From Chromera velia (lineage: Eukaryota > Sar > Chromeraceae), in NCBI GenBank assembly GCA_018398765.1, contig JAHBMJ010003590.1, forward strand, positions 131,648 through 166,575: a DNA stretch of 34,928 bases, written 5' to 3'. Both the position numbers and the translations under genes were made by a program. Shown here in pieces: positions 5,847 through 31,813 of the stretch (its first letter is position 1; each line of letters opens with the position of its first letter). Below the pieces are notes generated by a model. It worked only from the letters and a program-made list of their open reading frames with translations, had not been told where the DNA came from and searched no databases.

Positions 5847-6439
5847 CTTTGCAAAAGTAACAGATTTCGCTGTTCGAAAATGAGTGTTGCTCGACGAAAG
5901 AGTCTGATTCGCCCGAGAACTCTTCAAAAGTTTTTTTGGCAGCCAAAGCAGCTCTGAAGAAGCTTTTATGCTGAATGAGAGAATTGAGTGGGTTTCTATT
6001 GCGGAGCTCCATGACTGACGCATTGAAGTCGACACTACACCAGTCGACCCGATTGAAGGGCCGATTCAATTAATGGCGCCTGACCTTTGTCATCGTATAC
6101 ATGCAGTTAAATTCATCTCCGCTCGCATTGCGCGCGCCTGCATGTAGACTTTGTTGATCGAATCAAGAATTTTGTCAAGAAGAGCTAGCGCATGCTAGCG
6201 CTCACACCGATACGTACGTACGTGCGCAATGATACGAGGACGCGTCCGGACATGTCAGGACGTCAGCCAAGCTGACGAGGTCGGACAGCGAAGACGTCCC
6301 GTGGTGTCACCACAGCAAGCGTCCAACAGCTTGCATCAGCCAGCCTGCCTTGTTCTCCTTTGTTTGATGGATTGCTGACTCGAAACGGATTCAGAAATCG
6401 CGTTGCCAGCACTCAGACAGACAGGCAGAGAATTCCAGG
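5847..6439. promoter_or_regulatory. Divergent intergenic region between DUF4436-like gene and CBS
   Basis: About 590 bp separate two outward-facing start codons, so both promoters and 5' UTRs should lie here. It contains an ACGTACGTACGTGCGC tract (about 6213-6228) and GCTAGC repeats near 6185-6200. I see no convincing TATA box or other assignable element. The first part (to 6035) may be coding if the upstream ATG is used. Confidence 0.45.
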
Positions 6440-8311
6440 ATGTCGTCTCTCCAAGAAATCTTGAAGCTCGCAGAGAAAGAGGCAGTCATTGAGTTTCCCC
6501 ACTATGCGGGCTGTGACAAGTGCACTTGGAAGCCAAACTCGAAGGAGAAAAGCCCCCACCCTGCCCTCCCCCTGAAACCCCAGCCGAAGATCCTCGACTC
6601 AATTCTCGATGCTATCGGTCGTACCCCCATGGTTCGCTGCAGCCGTCTGGCAGAGCGGCACGGACTGGAGTGCGAACTTCTGGCCAAGTGCGAGTTCATG
6701 TCCGCGGGAGGATCCGTGAAGGACCGGATTGGACTTCGGATGGTGTTGGAGGCCGAAATGGCCGGGAAGTTGAAGAAGGGGGACACCCTCATTGAGCCCA
6801 CCAGCGGGAACACGGGGGTCGGCCTCTCTCTCGCTGCGGCCATCAAAGGATACAAAATGCTCATCACACTTCCCGAGAAAATGTCTGGGGAGAAGGTATG
6901 TTCTTTCACGCAATGAAGAACTTCAAGTCGGTAGACCATCAGTGAGTGTTGCTTGCTTCCCAAGAGACGTATCCCCGTCTCCCCCTTCTGCCTCCGTGGA
7001 CCGTCAGCCGAATTGTTGACGGCCAAAATCGCATCCGCTTCACATGTTTGCCTGTACGCCCTGCACTCTTTGTAGCCCTGAAAGGAACCTCACTTAGGAT
7101 GTCGTCCGTTCCGCTGCATTTTCCTCTTTTCCTTGTCAAACGCTTGTTGGATTGGTGTGCGTCTTTGCGACTTGGACAGGCCGGCTTCGTGTTTGATAAA
7201 AGGGAACCTGTGACTGGAGACACCTGACTGATGTCAAAAATAACGAAACGCGTTCTCAAGCTGAGCACACACCCTCCTTCCAATTGAATCAAATGAGTAA
7301 CTTAGAAGGACGATCGATCGATCGATCGATCCGTCCGTCTGCGTGTCCACTCCACCCGCCACGTGCATGCTTCCTTCAGGTGAACATGATGAAGGCCCTG
7401 GGTGCCGATATTCTCCGCACACCCACGGAGGCGGCATGGAACGCCCCGGAGAGCCACATAGGCCTGGCTCTGAAGCTCAACAAGGTGATCCCCAACAGCC
7501 ACATCCTTGATCAGTACAAAAACCCGGCCAACCCGATGGCACACTACGAGTGGACAGCCGAGGAAATTCTGGAAGCGTGCGAGGGGCAGCTCGATATGGT
7601 CGTACTCACAGCAGGTCTGTCTGTCTGTCAGTAGAAGGGACCTGAGCGAATGCTTTGTCGTTCCTCCTTTCGGGATCAAAACTATTGCCTGGCATGTTTG
7701 TCTTGAGCGTAATTCGGTCAGGAACTCTGGGGGGGAACTTGTTTGTCTTGGGGGGAGGAGGAGAACAGAACGTTTCTTCCGATGTTTGTCTTTAGTGCAC
7801 TTCACTCAGAAAGGAGCGTGTGTTATCAATCGAGATCATACCCGAAGCTTGTTCTCTTCATGTCTTGGTGGCTGCATGTTGCTCTTGTGAGAAGAAGACT
7901 GACTGCCCTCTTTCTCCTTCCCACGGCAAGACAGCACGTGAGCAAAAGCAATTGAATCAATTTCCTTTTCTGCATGCCAATGATCATTCCTCCGTGTGTG
8001 CCTGCAAAAAGGCACTGGAGGGACCCTGACGAGCATCAGCAGGAAGATCGTTTATTTTGATACAGAATTCATACAGAAATAAACGTATGAAAGTAAACGC
8101 ACGTCTGCAGGCACTGGAGGGACCCTGACGGGCATCAGCAGGAAGATCAAGGAGAAGTGCCCGAAGTGCATCGTGGTGGCTGTGGACCCGAAGGGCAGTA
8201 TTTTGGCAGAGCCTCCAGAGCTGAACGAGGACGGAAAGAACCGACCCTACCAGGTGTGGGGGGGTTGGAAGGGGAGGACGGGAGTGGAAGTCAAGGGAGA
8301 CGCGGAGAACA

Positions 8312-20909: not shown

Positions 20910-23900
20910 GTGTGTTCCACAAATGTTGTTTCTTTGTCTGAGTGTGTTAATTCTGGTTTCTTGGGTGGGGAAGGAAAGGAAACGGCTCAAAGGAGGAGAA
21001 AAAAAGAGGACAATGAAGAGAGTCAGACCGAGTCGTTCTCATCTATCACCACGCCAGTGAGCAGTTCATCAGAGAGAGGACAGTCCCTGCCATCATCGCC
21101 ACCATCGTCGTCATGCAGATCTGAAGCATTGAGCATAATAACATCAAGTGAGTCAGACGGGGAGGAAGAGACAAAGGAGGAGGAAAGAGTAACCATTTGC
21201 TTGCAGAACAATAGAGGAATGACAAGAAGATTGATGGATAGTGACTCTTTTGCAGCAGAAATGGAAAAACAGAGAACAGATGTACTGGTGCTAACGGAAA
21301 CGAGAACGGAAATAATAATGTGCAGTCTGAGTGGAGGAGGGATGGGGGGCACGAACTACTTGCTGAAGAGAAAAGGGAGAATGGTAACAGCCATAGGAGG
21401 GGTTACGGTTTTGTTGAGCAGAAGAGCAAGAGAACTGGGCTTTTAGACAGAAAGAGCAACAAAAGCAGCCGTTTTTGTACAGGCACCGGGATTCTCCCTG
21501 ATAGTGGGACTGTATGACCCGCCAGGAGACTCTACTCATGAAAACGATGGCTTTCTTGAGGAAATAAGAGAGAAAGTGGAGGAAAAGAGAAGAGAAAGAA
21601 AGCAAAGAGGGGACGAATGAGTGAATGAAGTGTGCGTGTGTGGGGACTTCAATGCCAGGACAGCAAACAAGGTGCCTCTGGTGGTATGGGGAGGGAGGGA
21701 AGGAGACGAAGGAAGGGACGAATGGGAAGGAATGGTGAAGGGGGGGAGGGTGGGGGGAGTGTACCAACCAGAGAGAACATCAGAAGATGAAACGGAAAAT
21801 TGGAAAGGAAAGCTGTTCATAAGGTTCTGCAAAGACCTTGGACTGGTCTTACTGAATGGCCTCAGAAAGTATGCACTTAAAGAGGGAGGGAGGGAGCACG
21901 ACTTTGCTTCTGATGGTCAGTGCACCTATCAGAGTGCAGGGGGCGGCGAATCTCTCATCGATTATGTATACGTGACTCCTTGTTTGCTTTTGTCTTATGT
22001 ATCTTTTTCGTTGTGTATGCTGATAAGTGCCCCTTTTGATCATGCATATCTGAGACTGACCCTTAAAGGAGGAAAGAAGAAACCACCATAAGAAGAGAAG
22101 GAAAAGAAGGGAGAGAGAAAAGAAAAGGAAAAGAAGAGAGGACAAAAAGAGAAGAAAGGAAGGAAAAGACTGATCTTCAAAGAAACAGAAAAGGAAGAGG
22201 ACAGAATAAGACCTAGATGGAAAAGGACTTTCACACGAAGAACGGAAAGAGAATTCATAGAAGAATTGGACAAGAGAGTCACCATAAAGAAGATAGGGGA
22301 GGTATTCTAAGAAGCAAATGGTAGGAAGAAAGGAGAAACCATAGAGAGAGAAGCATTAGAAAGAGAATACAAGAAAATGAGACAGGTAAGAGAGGAAACA
22401 TATAGGTGGGCACTAAGGCAACAAAAGAAGAGGGAAAGAAAAGGGAATGGAGAAGCCTTAGAAGCCGATGAGTCAGTGAGAATAGAAAAGGCAGAGTAAA
22501 GAAGAATAAGAGCACTTAAAAGAAAAATCAGAAAGAAAATAAAAAACTTGAAACAGAAGAAAGGCGAAGGGACAGAAAGAGGACAAGAAGAGAGATGGCA
22601 GAGAGAATACAAAGAGAGAAGAAAACAACTAGAAGAGGTAGAGAGAGAGAGGATCAGGATTCAGAAAAGGGAAGCATCCAAGGAAACAATGAGAAAGGTG
22701 CAAAGAATAAGGAAGGAAATAGGAGAAGGAGGATGCTGGAAGGTCTGGAGGAGACTAGGAACAGAAGACAAGAAGAGAGAACCGAGGAGGATGAAGGACA
22801 GTCTCATAATGGAACAAGTTCCGAAAGGATGGAAAAAACAGACAAAGCTCCCAGACGATGAAGTGGAAACAGAAAAGAAAGAAGAATGCAAAAGATGCAC
22901 AGCAGTAAGAGAAAAGAACACGAAGATAGCTACCGAAAAGGAAGTGAGGGAGGCAATAAAAAAAGCCGGGAATCCTAAAAAAGCTGCTGGAAAGGATGGA
23001 ATGCCTCCGGGTCTGCTCAGGTTGCATAAAAAATCTTTAGTAATGGTGAATGTATATGCTGATTTGATTAATGCATCTTTTCGTTATGCGTGGTGGCCAG
23101 AGGGATGGAATGATTTACCAGTGACGGCATTGCCGAAGCCTGGCAAGTCACAGGCAGTGATGGGGGGATGGAGAAACGTGCACCTGGCATGTGCAGACGC
23201 AAAATGGGGAGACACGATTCTCGGTAATAATGTAGAAAGAGAAGCAAGGCAGAACCTATAGCAGTTTACATATAGAAAGAAAGTAGGAACATGCGATGCC
23301 ATCTTTCTTCTTTTGTTTGTGATTGCCCACCATTTCTTTATGATTGTGGCCCTCGTTGATTTCACTCGAGCTTTTGACGAAGTCAGGCATAGCAAGCTTG
23401 AGCAGCAACTGAGAGAGGCAGGGGTTTCAGAGGAGCTAATCCGATGAGCCCTGGCATCGCTTGAGAAAGTAAGAGCAAGAGTGAAAGGGACAGGAAAGTG
23501 GTATCAAGAACAGATAGGGATGAAACAAGGGGGGTCTAGTGGGCCCACTTTTTTCAAAGGATACGTACACGACCTGTCAGAGAGAGTAAGAAAGGAAGGG
23601 AGGGCTGGGAGAAGGAGAATAGGAGAACAGGGAGAAAGACCGAAAGTACCGGTCGGAGAGGATGGGAGGTGGATAGATTTTTTCTCCCTATTATTTGCAG
23701 ACGATACGACTTTGCTCGATGCAACAGACAGAGAATTGAACAAACTGCTGGAGGGATTAAGGAAGTACGCAGAGCCGCTCCGTCTCCTCTTTTCTGACAA
23801 ATCGAGAGTACTAAGGTTTGGAAGGCAAAGGCAGACAGAAGAGATCAGAATAGGCAGCATAGTACTAAAAGAAGAGAAAGTACAGCCATTTTTGGGTTTG

Positions 23901-24479
23901 GTTCTTCCCTCAAACTGCGACCTCGATGTAATGATGGCAGACAGAGCAGTGAGAGCAGAGAAATGCATGCAAGGATTGATAGGAAAGTTAGCCAGAGAGC
24001 CAGCCGTGCCGCCGGCAGAATGTTTTCATTTGTTTAATCAGACGGTGCGTGTAGTGTGGATGTATGGATGCGAGATACACCCATGCACAGACAGGGCCTG
24101 TGCAGAATTCGACGAAAAACAAAGACGCTTTGTGAGGTGGGTCTTGGGGCTAAGGAAGACAGAAAGCGCAGACACTACATTGATGGAGGGGGGGGTGTTT
24201 TCAATTGATATTGAAGTGGCAGAAAGGATGATCAGATGGGCAAGAAAGGCACTAAAAGAAAAGAAGAAGGAGACGATTGGGCAGGCTGTCATTCATTTCT
24301 TCAGAGGAGAAGTGGAGGATGAACTGAAGGGGAAGAAGAACAGAGTTGCATCCCTTTCACTTCTTTCTGTATTTGAAGAAATACACACAGACACTATTCA
24401 CAGAGAGAAGCCTTCATCCTTTTTCAAAAGAGAAGCTCGCAGGCCAGCCAGGAGAGATAGGGACACACGCAGTGAATGA
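20910..24479 (+). pseudogene. LINE endonuclease-reverse transcriptase ORF with in-frame stops
   Basis: One frame runs about 3.57 kb without a frameshift but is cut by stops at 21444 (TAG), 21618 (TGA), 22089, 22308 and 22497 (TAA), 23259 (TAG) and 23445 (TGA), ending at 24477. Endonuclease signatures: DVLVLTETR near 21280, GDFNAR at 21642, SLIDYVYV near 21955 and FDHAYLRL near 22035, as in APE-type LINE endonucleases. RT signatures: VDFTRAFD at 23355, MKQGGSSGP at 23520 and FADDT at 23694 with both catalytic Asp present. A coiled, Glu/Lys-rich linker lies between the two domains. Confidence 0.88.
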
Positions 24480-25621: not shown

Positions 25622-26490
25622 CACTAATCACTACTAGGACCAACATTTCATTCTTCATGTCTGTCTCCTGCTGCAAAGCCCTACAAAACTTTAACTTCCT
25701 GATCCAGAGTTTGTCAATTTGTTGATGTCTGCAACAGTCTCTCTCTCGTATAACTTTAATTAACTTCTAAAACCAGCATTTCTTTCTTCATGTCTGTCTC
25801 TTGCTGCAGAGCCCTATACATAACTTTGACTTCTAGATCTAGATTTTTTTACTTCATGTATCTTCATGTCTGCAATAGTCTGTCTCTCGCACAACTTTAA
25901 CTTCTAGGACCAGCATTTTTTTTTTACGTCTGTCTCCTGCTGCAGAGCCCTAGCTACAAAACTTTGACTTCCGGATCTAGAGTTTGTTAATTTATTGATG
26001 TCTGTCACAGTCTGTCTCTCATATAACCTTAACTTCTAAAACTAGAATTTCTTTCATCATGTCTGTCTCCTCCAAAACTTTAACTTCTGGATCTAGCCGT
26101 ATATTTCTAGAAATGATGTAAAAAATCTGTTCCATAGTTCTTTTTCTATCGTTACAACGTCTTCTTACACAAAGTTTCAGCTTCTAACTCCTTACCAATT
26201 ATGAGAACGAGTTTTTTGCGGAAATGCGCCGCTTTAGGGGGGCAAAAAGCACCCCACTCACCCCCGGCATGCGGCGTGGATCTAGCCTAGTCTGTCAAAA
26301 CGTTCCGGTTCGTCCCGCCGAGCCCTACAAAACTTTGACTTCCGGATCTAGGGTTTGTTTATTCATGTCTGTGACAGTCTTTCTCTAGCACAACTTTAAC
26401 TTCTGGGGCCAGAATATATTTCTTCATGTCTGTCTCCTGCTGCTGAGCCTTACAAAACTTTAACTTCGCAAAATTAGTGCAAGCCGCCGC
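25622..26490. repeat. Satellite array, right block
   Basis: About five more units of the same 127-bp dimeric satellite in the same orientation. The block starts mid-unit at CTACTAGGACCAACATTTC immediately after the LINE tail, matching the unit at about 19370. It ends just before the stop codon of the Prx-Grx gene. Confidence 0.92.
26097..26319. other. Non-satellite insert within the right satellite block
   Basis: The satellite stops after CTGGATCTAG and resumes at GAGCCCTACAAAACTTTGAC. The intervening sequence is unrelated, with a GC-rich end (GGGGGGCAAAAAGCACCCC). TGGATCTAGCC occurs at its start and again at 26277-26287, but the second copy is not followed directly by satellite, so a clean target duplication is not shown. 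Confidence 0.6.
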
Positions 26491-26503: not shown

Positions 26504-29467
26504 TCATCCTTCCGTTTGCGCCAAAAGTTTCTCCTTCACAAGTAAGCTCTTCAGCTCCCCCGACTCATACATGTCTTTCACGATGTCCGCACCTGAAGAC
26601 AGTGGAATGAGGCAGGTAGCAACAAAGCCAAGCAACGTAAGCTTGTATGTTTTTTGGCAGAGGCCTGGGCAGAGGCCGATCCAAAGGAAACGAATGCATG
26701 CATGCATCTGGCTGCATGGAGGACGAGGGGAAAAAAGAAAAAAAGTCGGCGGAGTCACACGTGAGTACTAGCCGAATAAAAAACAAGGAAGTGAAAGACT
26801 CAGCACACAGGTAGGTGCACGACAGAGGGGGAAACGTCAGTGGAGTGCATCGCAGTATGCAATGTTGTCGTCTTGTCGGAAACTCTTGACCGAACGGTTA
26901 TGAGAGAAGCGAAGCGTGAGTTGGAGGACGAATGGGGTTCATTCAAGAAGACAAATGTCTGTCTGCAGAAGATGAACTTCATTTTCCTCGAACGTTCATG
27001 TGAAACGTCATAGTCCTTCAAGAGATTTGAATGTGTAAGACAAAAAAGACAATTAAGAAGACCACACAGCACGGAGGGAGAGAGGAAGAGACCCACCTCC
27101 TTGGAGTTCACCCTGCACAGACAGAGCACACAACAAATTAAGGGCAGCCGAAACAGAAGCGAGGAAGATGCTGCTTTTGGCTTTACAAGTCGATCCGTAT
27201 GAAGCATGCAGAGCCGTTTGCGATCTTTGTTACTCACTGTGCACGCCTGTTTCTGTGTGAACGCGACCTTTTCTTCTTCTGTTTGAGTCTTCTATTGCCA
27301 CCTCCAACGCGCATGCTGCTCGTGAGCTCACCAAGCGAGCACTTCAGGGGATCTCGCGCTTAGCCTTATCTCTAGAGTTGAGTGATTGACGATCTCTGGC
27401 ATGAACATGGGCTGCTGGGAGCACGGCTCCACTCTAGCAAAGCCAACTTCATTCATTCATCATGCAGGACTGTGAGAGTCCTCACAAGACAGAATTCTTT
27501 GAGAAAGTAAGACGAAAAGCGTGGAATGGGAATTGAGAGTCCGACCTGCCTCTCACAAAAACAGCATGCAGCCAAGAAAACCATGAGCGTCTGACCTTAA
27601 CAAATAGTTGTGGGAAAGTAGGAAAGTTCGAGAAGCTCTTCACGCCTTCACGCAAATTGTCACTGCTGAGCACGTCCATCGAGACGAACTCCACGTCCAG
27701 TTGTCTGCACGTTCGTTCAACAGTTGACTTTTGTTTTCTTTCGTCCAGTTACAGAGAGTCTCCGCAAGCTGTGTGCAGGTTCACGTAGCAACTGTTTGAT
27801 TCCAAAGTTTCCATGTGGACTTTCGAGAGAGGGCGGAGAGGCGTTCAAGAAGGAAATAGAAATCGAATAAGGAAAAAAAGGCGGAAAAGAAAGAGAGGGG
27901 CTGAAGGAAAATGCATCCCAGCCACATACAACCTAGTGTGATGCTCAGCAAGCAGAGGCACGGAGGTAGCAGAGAGTAGATTTCATGGGCTGTTGGGTCA
28001 CAAAACCGCGTTGCCTCCTCGATCGCTTTGAGACCCAGTTGAGACGGATCTTGTCTTCTTCAACCATGGTAGCTCATGTCTCCCATATCTCCACTTTCCT
28101 CTCCTTGTGGCCACAGTTAAAGCATCATCAGAATCCCGACAGCAGGAAACACTCAAAGGGAACTCAGAGGAGCACACGCATGTGCAGACAGACTCACCGC
28201 AGGATCGCAACCACCGTGGCGGAGAAACCGCACCGGGGTTCCGCAGGGACTCCCTGACAAAGCAAAGACAATCAAGGAAGGCGTGCAGTCAGACTCGAGG
28301 CCAAGAACAATTTAATTATTCTTCTGTACCCTTTACAAGCCAGGCACGCCTATGGCAGTGGGCTCTGCATTCAAGACTGAGTGCAGCTGCCCCATACAAA
28401 TTTCTGCTGCTGGAGATCAAACTCCTTGCAGACACGTCAGCATAGAAAACAAGAGCGAAGGAAGGTGCGGGTGAGAGATAAGACTTGAAGGTCACCTCAG
28501 CAGAAGAGTCGATGATGGGTGCTTACTTGTCTGGTGAAACGCCCACGCAACTGAAAAGGGAGACGAGAGAGAGAGAGAAATATTCAAGCAATCAATACGG
28601 GTGTTGGAAGCAGACGGAACGGGTAAGGGGTCGGGGCACAGAGTTCTGCCAAATTCGGTACGCATCGATCGGCGAGGTTCATAACTGACTGACTGACTGA
28701 CTGACCTTCATGAACAAAAAAACGGGATATTGGTTGACAAGCTCTCTGCAAGCAGCATCAGAGAAAGAGAGAGCGGAGATCCAGAGCAGCCTTGGCAAGG
28801 AAAACGGGTAAGGGGGGGACACGAATGGAGGCCAGAGAGGAGACGGGTCTCTTTTTCCTTCTGCCTGAATCACCTGCGGGTGGGCTGGAAGGGCTGACAC
28901 GCAACTCGACTGCGAGAGCAGAGCTGATCCAAATAGAGATGGAAAGCGGGAGAACCGAGTACAGAAGAGGAGGTGGAGGGGAGGCATGAGTGAAACTCGG
29001 AGGGAAATCAGGAAGGAGGAAGTGCAACAAAAGAAAAGAGAGAGAGAAAAAGACAGGTGAAACAAAATCGGGCTGACGCACGCCAGAATTTCCTCGATGG
29101 GCTTGTCCACCTTCACAGATCGCGTCCCTGTGCTCCTTTCACCTTCATCCTCCCCCCCTCCAGTCTCCCCAGAGGCATCAGCACCCTCAGTGTTCAGAGG
29201 CATCCCGTTCGGACCCACTGCCCCCTGCATGTGATCGGATGCATGGCACAAAGAGTTCACCTGGTCACCAAGCAAAAAGAGTCGTTGATGGCATCAACAG
29301 CTCGGAGAAAAGGAAAAGTCTACAAACACAAATTCGGATCAACTTGAGACCACAAAGACAGATTCAAGGAGCAGTCCAGTAGGCGAGACCTCGGCCGAGC
29401 CTCAGACAGGAAAGCAAAACCTTCGACAGACAGAAAGCCGGAACGCACGCACGCACGTACGCACGCA

Positions 29468-29504
<37 letters not shown>

Positions 29505-31813
29505 GCACGCAGAGAGAGAGAGAGAGAGAGGAGAGAGAGAAAGTTCTACTACCTCGTTCCTTCTCACTTACTGACTGACTGACCCTCAGAAATCCGATTG
29601 CATTCCCTCCCATCGAGAGACCCTCCCTGGCGAGAAATTCGATCTTCCCTGCATGGGAGACAGAGAGAGATAAGAGCATGCACGAGTGCACATGAAAGCG
29701 AGGCACAAAACATTGTCGGAACGGAGTGGCAGGAAGAGCACTTGACGGGGGGAGGGCGGGAGAAACCGATTGAAGGGAGGACGGATGAGGACAGGACTGA
29801 GTGAACACAAACCTTCCACCGTGCTAGCGTTTCTCTCGCGTCAGAGACGAGATCGGCAGTACACACGCTCGGACTCACACATGACACACACACACACACA
29901 CACAAAACAGATCTGAGAGAGAGCAAATTAGAGAATTGCTGACACCAAGCGAAGACAAGAAGGGCGTCTGTCAAGACAAAAGAGGCACGAAGGACATGAT
30001 GGTGTGTGCAGTGCACTGACCTTCTTTGTTGATAACCGCCGCGTATCTGCATTTGAAGGGGAAACAAACAGGAGCGGCGTTATTGCTCATGTACCAACTT
30101 CGAACAGCTGCCAGTGAGCAGACAGGGAAGAGTAGCGGGTGGAAGAACAGGGGGAGAGGCAGCAGGAAGATGGTTGGGGGACGGCTGACAGATGCATGAC
30201 AGACACTCTCGCACGTGGTCATGAGACGCTGAGGGGAAAAGACCGGCAGCTGGAGAGAGGGATGGAAGAAGAGGGAGCTAGAAGGGCTCAACACAAAATT
30301 CCTCTTCGACTCACATACCTCGCGGACTTCAGACCCATTCCAGCATCAATAGCCTTCTCGTTGACCATGCCAGCAGCCTGCGTGTACACCCTTGCACATG
30401 TATGCATGCAGATCCCCGTGCACGCGAGAGAGGGGGGGGAGAGAAGAGAGAGAGAGAGAGGACACATGCAAAAAAGATGAGAACACGGGCGTCCACAAGC
30501 AGGAAAGAAGAAGGCCTTACACACCCCGTCTGTTCATTTCTGAGCACACACTTTCACGAAGAATCTTTGGAATAATCGCCAGGGATAGATTCCGCATCAC
30601 TCCACCGCCACAACTCGACAAAGCCGTTCAGGAAACCCGCCCTCCCTGCCTCCCTTTCCCTCTCCGACAGACCTGCGTGAAGGCTGCGTTACCGTCAGAG
30701 ATCATGCTGACGCCCTTCTCGCCTGCCCCTGCCTGCTGTTCCCAGGCTGGACACAGAAGGAACAAAAGGAATAAAGAAGAAAGGTTATGGGGAACAACAA
30801 ACAAGCGAGGCAGTTTTTTGCCTGCCCATCGGATCGCCAGCTTGTCTCTTTCTCTGACTTCTTCACTTGCCTCCCTGTTTGTGTTTGTTTTTCGTTCTCT
30901 TTCCTTCCTTCCTTTCTTCTTCCATTTCTCCCTCCCTCCTCCCTTGCTCCCTTGCTCCCTCCCTCCCTTCTTCCCATCATTCCTTCTTTCCTTCCCTTTC
31001 CCTACTTTCTTTCAGCACAATCATTCTACCTGCCGACCTCTCTCTGACCTTTTCGCGTCTCAACCCCCCACCCCACCCCCTTCCCTGTGCAGACTCACCC
31101 TTGAGCACAAACGCGTCGTTGGTTGACAGGCAGCCGATGAACTCGATGCCCAAAGACCGGAGCTCGTCTGCGGCCTGGATGTAGGAGGGCAGGTGCTCCC
31201 CCGAGCATTTTGGGGTGAACGCGCCTGCACGAACGAACGCATTCAGCCAGTCACACAAGAAACGAAGGTCCCAACGAGCACCTGAGGGTACAAGATTCGA
31301 ACACAAAAGCTGAAGAGAATCGTGAAGCGGGAAAGGAATTCTGAGCGAGAAAGTGTGCTGGAAGGGGGCCGCAAAAGAAAGAGGGAGACTGGAGACGGCA
31401 ACATGACACACTTGAGGGTCGGACAGAGAAGAGCGGACCCGAGGACAATGAGACGCAACATCATCACACAAACCCACCAGGGACAGCAAAAATGAGCGCC
31501 CTCTTTCCCTGCAAGCAAACTCAAACACACAAGGAGAGAAAGTTCACACACACTCGGACCTCTACGTCGTCTGTGAAATCCGGACGCTGCGCACCTTCAC
31601 AATCTCGGGCACGGTCGTCACTTGTCCATTGTACTTCACTGGCGCATCTGGCAGGGTCGATCCAACCTCCAGGGTCATGTACAGAGGGCTGAGGCGAGGC
31701 CTCCCTGCTCTCTTCTGGGAGACATGAAGGGGAGACGGCGTTCTCAACACGAAGGAGTGCACGGAGACGCTGAGCAGAGCCACGAGGGCCCACAAAGTGA
31801 GACGACAGATCAT
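26504..31813 (-). CDS. Type II peroxiredoxin fused to monothiol CGFS glutaredoxin, plastid-type leader
   Basis: Thirteen exons: 31813-31595, 31508-31478, 31224-31099, 30746-30673, 30377-30319, 30046-30021, 29648-29584, 29224-29082, 28745-28706, 28253-28198, 27704-27596, 27112-27097, 26592-26504. All phases match, giving 350 aa. Residues 1-20 are a signal peptide with likely cut VHS|F at Phe21; 21-45 are Arg/Ser/Pro-rich, so the leader is bipartite and plastid-type. The Prx5-type domain (about 48-200) has PGAFTPKC with peroxidatic Cys90, a second Cys115 in GCLSTNDAF, and Arg170 in SARYA. Residues 201-240 are a Gly/Glu-rich linker. The glutaredoxin domain (241-350) has CGFS at 269-272, FPTFPQ (TVP-like loop) and GGAD (glutathione-binding). 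Expected role: peroxide reduction coupled to glutathione. Bacterial hybrid Prx5 proteins have the same order but a CPxC glutaredoxin. The exon 7/8 junction is the least certain. Confidence 0.93.
28687..28705. repeat. CTGA tetranucleotide run at a 5' splice site
   Basis: On the coding strand intron 9 of the Prx-Grx gene starts GTCAGTCAGTCAGTCAG, so the donor GT is the first unit of the repeat. Confidence 0.95.
29443..29541. repeat. GCAC/CA/GA compound microsatellite in Prx-Grx intron 7
   Basis: ACGC units, then a CA run, GCAC units and a GA run. On the coding strand this lies about 45 bp after the donor of exon 7. Confidence 0.95.
29887..29904. repeat. Short CA run in Prx-Grx intron 6
   Basis: About nine CA units on the plus strand. 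Confidence 0.85.

Follow-up and report, generated by a model that had tools for sequence, protein, structure and literature searches.

A 2009 survey (PMC2679010) tabulates fusions of a peroxiredoxin (Prx) to a glutaredoxin (Grx) as bacterial, with a CPYC Grx only, and gives them as then known only from proteobacteria; one of its reference titles is that of a glutaredoxin-fused thiol peroxidase from Anabaena. Among cyanobacterial proteins, PMC8147232 names all1541 as a 'peroxiredoxin 2 family protein/glutaredoxin', and a 'glutaredoxin-family domain protein' stands among the PRX annotations of PMC3514251. Here we describe a gene in a 34,928-nucleotide stretch of Chromera velia DNA (the window), on the minus strand at 26504-31813, which very probably is a single fused gene encoding a Prx5 domain followed by a monothiol CGFS Grx domain. 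Since that survey records such fusions as bacterial and with a CPYC Grx, two known families stand here, in one genome, in a combination that looks new.

Resplicing the raw sequence yields 13 exons and 12 introns, all GT-AG, with phases that fit at every intron and a coding frame of 1089 nucleotides including the stop (362 amino acids), free of stops and frame breaks across the 13 exons. The first-pass annotation had described 13 exons splicing in phase into one frame, and this is confirmed, with the ends at 31813 and 26504 exact and the exon 8/9 borders (29082/28745) exactly reproduced; the length it gave, 350 amino acids, has to be replaced by 362. Introns measure 86-504 nucleotides; the one at the border of the two domains, intron 7, measures 323. 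Along the protein, a plastid-type leader is followed by a complete Prx5 domain, a Gly/Glu-rich acidic linker and a complete monothiol CGFS Grx domain, and the five cysteines are C3, C90, C115, C205 (in the linker) and C281. The motifs reported earlier are all present: PGAFTPKC (C90), SARYA (R170), CGFS (C281), FPTFPQ (319) and GGAD (333).

The identity of both domains, as originally proposed, is borne out by profiles, residues and structures. Residues 50-187 match the Pfam Redoxin profile PF08534 (1.3e-23, 83.8 bits against a cut-off of 26.6), the PDB matches of the front half are Prx5-type chains (4f82, 5k2i, 1tp9), and the Prx5 site is complete, with PxxxTxxC (P83, T87, C90) and the conserved Arg R170. 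C115, in CLSTND, lies at the second-Cys position of the plant and PfAOP type, where 26 of 29 aligned Prx rows have Cys. These rows comprise 17 prokaryote loci, five sequences from the window or the rest of the genome and seven PDB chains; the corresponding Grx alignment has 36 rows (24, five and seven), with one Pelagibacter Grx counted twice (L029 and L030, the same place by coordinates). Both counts include the fusion, and several genome and PDB rows are partial sequences. By these marks the Prx5 domain is a predicted peroxidase of type II peroxiredoxin identity.

The back half matches Pfam Glutaredoxin at residues 268-331 (2.3e-16) and passes the NCBIfam profile for Grx4-family monothiol glutaredoxins (TIGR00365; 118.9 bits against a cut-off of 117.1, 7.9e-35). 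Its PDB matches are CGFS Grx chains (2yan, 5y4u, 3zyw and AtGrxS14, 2mma), the chain closest to the Grx domain being human GLRX3, and the loop from K273 to C281, which opens the CGFS motif, has seven residues, as in all 36 Grx rows. According to PMC7138851, an elongated loop is the off-switch, or determinant, of redox inactivity in class II Grxs, a WP motif is characteristic of the class, and class II Grxs are tied to iron-sulfur binding. By profile, CGFS motif and loop, we class the fused Grx as a variant class II domain, and do so despite an FP in place of WP because PMC7138851 makes the loop the determinant and WP merely characteristic.

Import into complex red plastids uses a signal peptide and, behind it, a basic transit peptide with Phe as its first residue. 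The Chromera protein starts with a hydrophobic stretch, MICRLTLWALVALLSVSVHS, followed by FVLRTPSPLHVSQKRAGRPRLSPLY, and its residues 21-45 hold five Lys or Arg and no Asp or Glu. Read by eye and from its composition, the leader fits a bipartite plastid signal, as suggested for it at the outset, and may direct the protein to the plastid.

One gene or two? One gene is the simplest reading of the exon chain, because the linker shares exon 8 with the beginning of the Grx domain and because intron 7 is ordinary in size. The fused frame would instead be an artefact or a minor isoform if there were two neighbouring genes here, or if alternative splicing gave mostly Prx5 alone and Grx alone. This we consider unlikely, although the join does sit between exons 7 and 8, where the Prx5 domain ends, and although the open linker by itself is weak evidence for a join: exon 8 stays open through 59 codons, and at the stop frequency of the introns such openness has a chance of 0.22. 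The codon score of exon 8 is 0.25 bits per codon in frame and -0.02 and -0.20 in the other frames, and that of the linker, 0.235 bits, is marginal, barely over the 95th percentile (0.217; maximum 0.364) of 717 overlapping stop-free intron windows, under a scoring trained on six frames of this genome. The test discriminates poorly, since its values fall from 0.34 in the Prx domain to just 0.19 in the Grx domain and -0.28 in the leader. Against a split stand the phases, which fit at 12 of 12 introns, and the ordinary intron 7, and also the frame of exon 7, which stays open for 88 codons beyond its donor, to about 29320, so that no stop follows right after the Prx5 domain. The Grx domain, moreover, already begins within exon 8. 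This exon has an in-frame stop ahead of it, and the first Met codons after its acceptor, M211 and M220, have no leader for a separate Grx behind them by eye.

The single fused gene, as first proposed, is supported by the phases, the size of intron 7 and the content of exon 8, and the domain-level matches are far beyond chance, with the join itself less strongly supported. The fusion is a gene model read at the DNA level, and a point against it is that the prokaryote, plasmid, phage and viral searches turned up no other species that has it.

Those searches were run without a positive control of a known hybrid, and their eukaryote coverage was the Chromera genome itself. Scans with six narrow back-translated patterns gave one relative, Grx only, in the contig collection and none among viral contigs, both weak negatives. 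A single place covering 80% of the query occurred in 0 of 159 matching plasmid records and 0 of 99 matching phage records, and in 398 genomes of the phylum to which a Pelagibacteraceae locus belongs, of which 352 had a match, none of the matches listed spanned both domains. Of 41 prokaryote loci, 16 had Prx only and 24 Grx only; the one with both (L031) has them on opposite strands, with a weak Grx match. No Grx adjoined any of the eight listed Prx matches whose open frames were longest (238-938 amino acids). One prokaryote locus (L073, G314:C2:450000-453400) carries two tandem Prx5 matches on the same strand, 107 bases apart. That the first-pass annotation was aware of no described Prx5-CGFS fusion agrees with the titles and abstract starts of openly licensed PubMed Central papers, which gave none among the matches listed. 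One candidate precedent, a fusion in an algal survey (PMC7539508), was rejected as GST-MSRA, not Prx-Grx. The fusion may occur in other algae, and the protein may well exist in eukaryote sequence databases as an unstudied prediction.

The assembly (177.8 Mb in 4040 contigs, with 58 LHC-family matches) also encodes both kinds of domain separately. We label these genes by contig number and judged their leaders by eye. Other Prx5 genes are C282 and C107, both with plastid-type leaders, C366, C831 and a doubtful C3601, among 12 Redoxin matches in the genome that include C3021, C1315, C1525, C358 (two) and C2119. CGFS Grxs are also encoded by C1636, whose leader is of plastid type, by C1432, whose leader is of mitochondrion type, and by the PICOT-like C3486, with two Grx domains; a further CGFS search match at C113 is weak. 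The genome therefore holds the parts both apart and together. A search with the fused Grx domain of the loci of the other Prx5 genes (about 3.1-3.4 kb each) gave no match.

Several of these genes deserve mention in their own right. C107 (L018, 9336-9701) and C366 (L019, 4407-4766) are single-domain Prx5 genes of the PfAOP type, and the closest PDB chains to the C107 Prx5 are HI0572 (198.8 bits) and then PfAOP 1xiy (140.9 bits). The relevant passage of PMC5361646 leaves open whether chromerids have PfAOP-type homologues; if the genome is chromerid, C107 and C366 indicate that they do. C351 (L004, 13884-14087) has a 458-amino-acid frame in which a CKYC glutaredoxin domain precedes a long further stretch, possibly the Grx half of another fusion. 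The Prx5-like frame in C3601 (L023, 68886-69020) has a plastid-type leader and breaks soon after PGAFTPTCSEKHLPG, at an intron or in a broken copy, and one Grx domain of the PICOT-like gene (L002/L005/L013, C3486:6037-8032) has CKFS in place of CGFS.

Where did the two halves come from? Our trees include 30 prokaryote loci (L032-L061; eight Prx and 22 Grx), the remaining matches being left aside. In the 20-row Prx tree the fused Prx5 pairs with C282 at modest support (86/81), and C107, C366, HI0572 and PfAOP, the last a row flagged as long and of odd composition, form a group at 100/98 that excludes the fusion. In the 34-row Grx tree, at the midpoint root, the fused Grx groups with PICOT domains (91/90), and by identity its nearest relatives are bacterial CGFS Grxs, at up to 59.8%. 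We would place it between PICOT and bacterial Grxs, and the 91/90 grouping does not settle its origin. Because the Prx5 domain pairs with C282 and sits outside the HI0572-PfAOP group, the fusion looks more like a join of resident lineages than a transfer of a bacterial hybrid gene.

What might such a protein do? Our preferred reading, to which we give about an even chance, is that the fused Grx domain is likelier to bind a [2Fe-2S] cluster than to recycle C90, which would be reduced in trans. Cluster binding is preferred over efficient recycling because the Grx domain keeps the seven-residue class II loop. A nuclear gene of a photosynthetic eukaryote would then encode one plastid-targeted protein with a type II Prx5, a flexible acidic linker and a class II Grx, which its leader would carry to the plastid. 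There C90 would reduce peroxides and be regenerated by glutathione (GSH) with a separate class I Grx or a thioredoxin, with C115 occupying the second-Cys position of plant and Plasmodium type II Prxs, and the Grx domain would pair with another copy or a partner via a GSH-ligated [2Fe-2S] cluster. The fusion would put a peroxidase at a site of iron-sulfur storage or delivery, shielding the cluster, and cluster loss would then follow local peroxide. In PMC8256493, PRXIIE is recycled more efficiently by GSH and class I GRX than by TRX, and class II GRX without a cluster fail to deglutathionylate roGFP. A link of the fusion to iron-sulfur status, one of the two roles that the first-pass annotation had offered, is plausible.

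Several observations speak against cluster binding with reduction in trans. WP, kept in 34 of the 36 Grx rows and DP in one, is replaced by FP (in FPTFPQ), and GGxD with Ala (GGAD) occurs in one row of 36, the fusion, which lacks the Cys of GGC and so has no second Cys in its Grx domain; the two substitutions may have changed the iron-sulfur site. A Lys next to C90 (K89) is likewise found only in the fusion among the 29 Prx rows. Given a stand-alone plastid-type Prx5 (C282) and CGFS Grx (C1636), the fusion may also be redundant. As for the trans reductant, a generic class I Grx query of the genome returned nothing, an uninformative result, as it also missed the one CxxC-type Grx frame seen in the genome, the CKYC frame in C351.

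The other role proposed at the start, monothiol recycling of C90, survives as a rival, weakened by the intact class II loop (PMC7138851) and the absent GGC Cys. Within one chain or dimer, C281 and GSH would deglutathionylate C90, in the manner of the bacterial Prx5-Grx hybrids except that the route would be monothiol. In its favour, GSH and Grx reduce PfAOP (PMC5361646), a class II GRX3 of Chlamydomonas deglutathionylates GAPDH (PMC8256493), and even a slow Grx could become useful once tethered; the altered WP motif would fit as well, as would the domain order, which is that of the bacterial hybrid, PDB 1nm3 having matched in the Prx part only. However, the elongated off-switch loop is intact (PMC7138851), GGAD leaves the domain without a second Cys, and class II Grxs are described as poor reducers of roGFP2 (PMC8256493, PMC7138851), so that we regard self-recycling as doubtful, though the strongest of the rivals on function. 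We give much less credence to a plastid peroxide-gated iron-sulfur switch, in which oxidation of C90 would be relayed to C281, by GSH or by C205 in the linker, and would release the bridged [2Fe-2S] cluster, turning peroxide into an iron-sulfur signal. Slightly less probable still is a relic or dispensable fusion whose Grx role has been lost, leaving only a dimerising or docking module: the substitutions at conserved positions (FP, GGAD) and the stand-alone paralogues with plastid-type leaders would suit it, but both domains are complete, their active-site residues are kept and the 13 exons are unbroken.

Exons of the predicted Prx5-CGFS gene, in window coordinates.
Feature	Position	Strand	Basis
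Exon 1: leader of bipartite type, MICRLTLWALVALLSVSVHS followed by FVLRTPSPLHVSQKRAGRPRLSPLY, and first part of the Prx5 domain	31595..31813	-	respliced; leader composition
Exon 2: Prx5 stretch ahead of the active site	31478..31508	-	GT-AG, in phase
Exon 3: active site PGAFTPKC, with codons for C90 (31207-31205) and C115 (31132-31130)	31099..31224	-	splice, Pfam, PDB, alignment; codons counted
Exon 4: Prx5 domain	30673..30746	-	respliced
Exon 5: Prx5 domain to GLKSA and part of the R170 codon	30319..30377	-	respliced
Exon 6: Prx5 domain, YAAVINKE; R170 codon straddles the exon 5/6 junction	30021..30046	-	splice, alignment
Exon 7: end of the Prx5 domain (GKIEFLAREGLSMGGNAIGFLR)	29584..29648	-	respliced
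Exon 8: Gly/Glu-rich linker, C205 codon 29248-29246, start of the Grx domain (KPIEEILA)	29082..29260	-	splice, codon test
Exon 9: start of the Grx domain, ending MK (K273)	28706..28745	-	splice, alignment
Exon 10: GVPAEPR loop and CGFS (codons 28232-28221; C281)	28198..28253	-	splice, Pfam, NCBIfam, alignment
Exon 11: Grx body with FPTFPQ motif	27596..27704	-	splice, alignment
Exon 12: 16-nucleotide micro-exon, GELQG(G)	27097..27112	-	respliced
Exon 13: (G)AD, end of the Grx domain and stop	26504..26592	-	respliced

Elsewhere in the window, short units recur by eye 3' of the stop, at about 26000-26470 on the minus strand ('AGATCC(A/G)GAAGT(T/C)AAAGTT' and 'ACAGACATGA'). The plus strand carries an exon of a pyridoxal-phosphate enzyme at 6368-6916 (PALP, 89.6 bits), by eye of the cysteine synthase/cystathionine beta-synthase type, and at 22500-24479 frames that by eye resemble a LINE, the first without a match and the second matching RVT_1 at 22.6 bits, under the cut-off of 29.6. 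On the minus strand, a frame at 3859-5310 matches DUF4436 (58.5 bits).

If the gene does yield a single mRNA, its product would unite a Prx5 with an iron-sulfur-class Grx, in contrast to the CPYC pairings, only bacterial, of PMC2679010. It would offer a natural test of whether tethered class II glutaredoxins can serve a peroxidase, and of coupling between peroxide defence and plastid iron-sulfur trafficking.

How does the fusion, known as a gene model, compare with its closest counterparts? Like the bacterial hybrid Prx5-Grx (Haemophilus influenzae HI0572, PDB 1nm3), it places a Prx5 and then a Grx in one chain. The hybrid, however, has a dithiol CPxC/CPYC Grx, whereas the Chromera gene has a CGFS Grx, 13 exons and a leader, and its Prx5 domain falls outside the tree group of HI0572. 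PICOT, or Grx3, a Trx-Grx protein, likewise sets a thioredoxin-fold domain ahead of a CGFS Grx; its front domain is a thioredoxin, not a peroxidase, and the protein is cytosolic. With plant chloroplast PRXIIE and Plasmodium PfAOP the fusion shares the Prx5 fold, the motif and, as the rows of poplar 1tp9 and PfAOP show, a second Cys where C115 lies, and it may share their plastid targeting, but these proteins have no Grx domain of their own and are reduced by a separate Grx; the PfAOP-type genes of this genome are C107 and C366. GRXS14 and GRXS16 are plastid proteins with the CGFS motif that the fused Grx also has, and the GRXS14 rows have the same seven-residue loop. GRXS16 is itself a fusion, to a GIY-YIG-fold domain (PMC8256493). 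Neither carries a Prx domain, and GRXS14 has WP and GGCD where the Chromera fusion has FP and GGAD.

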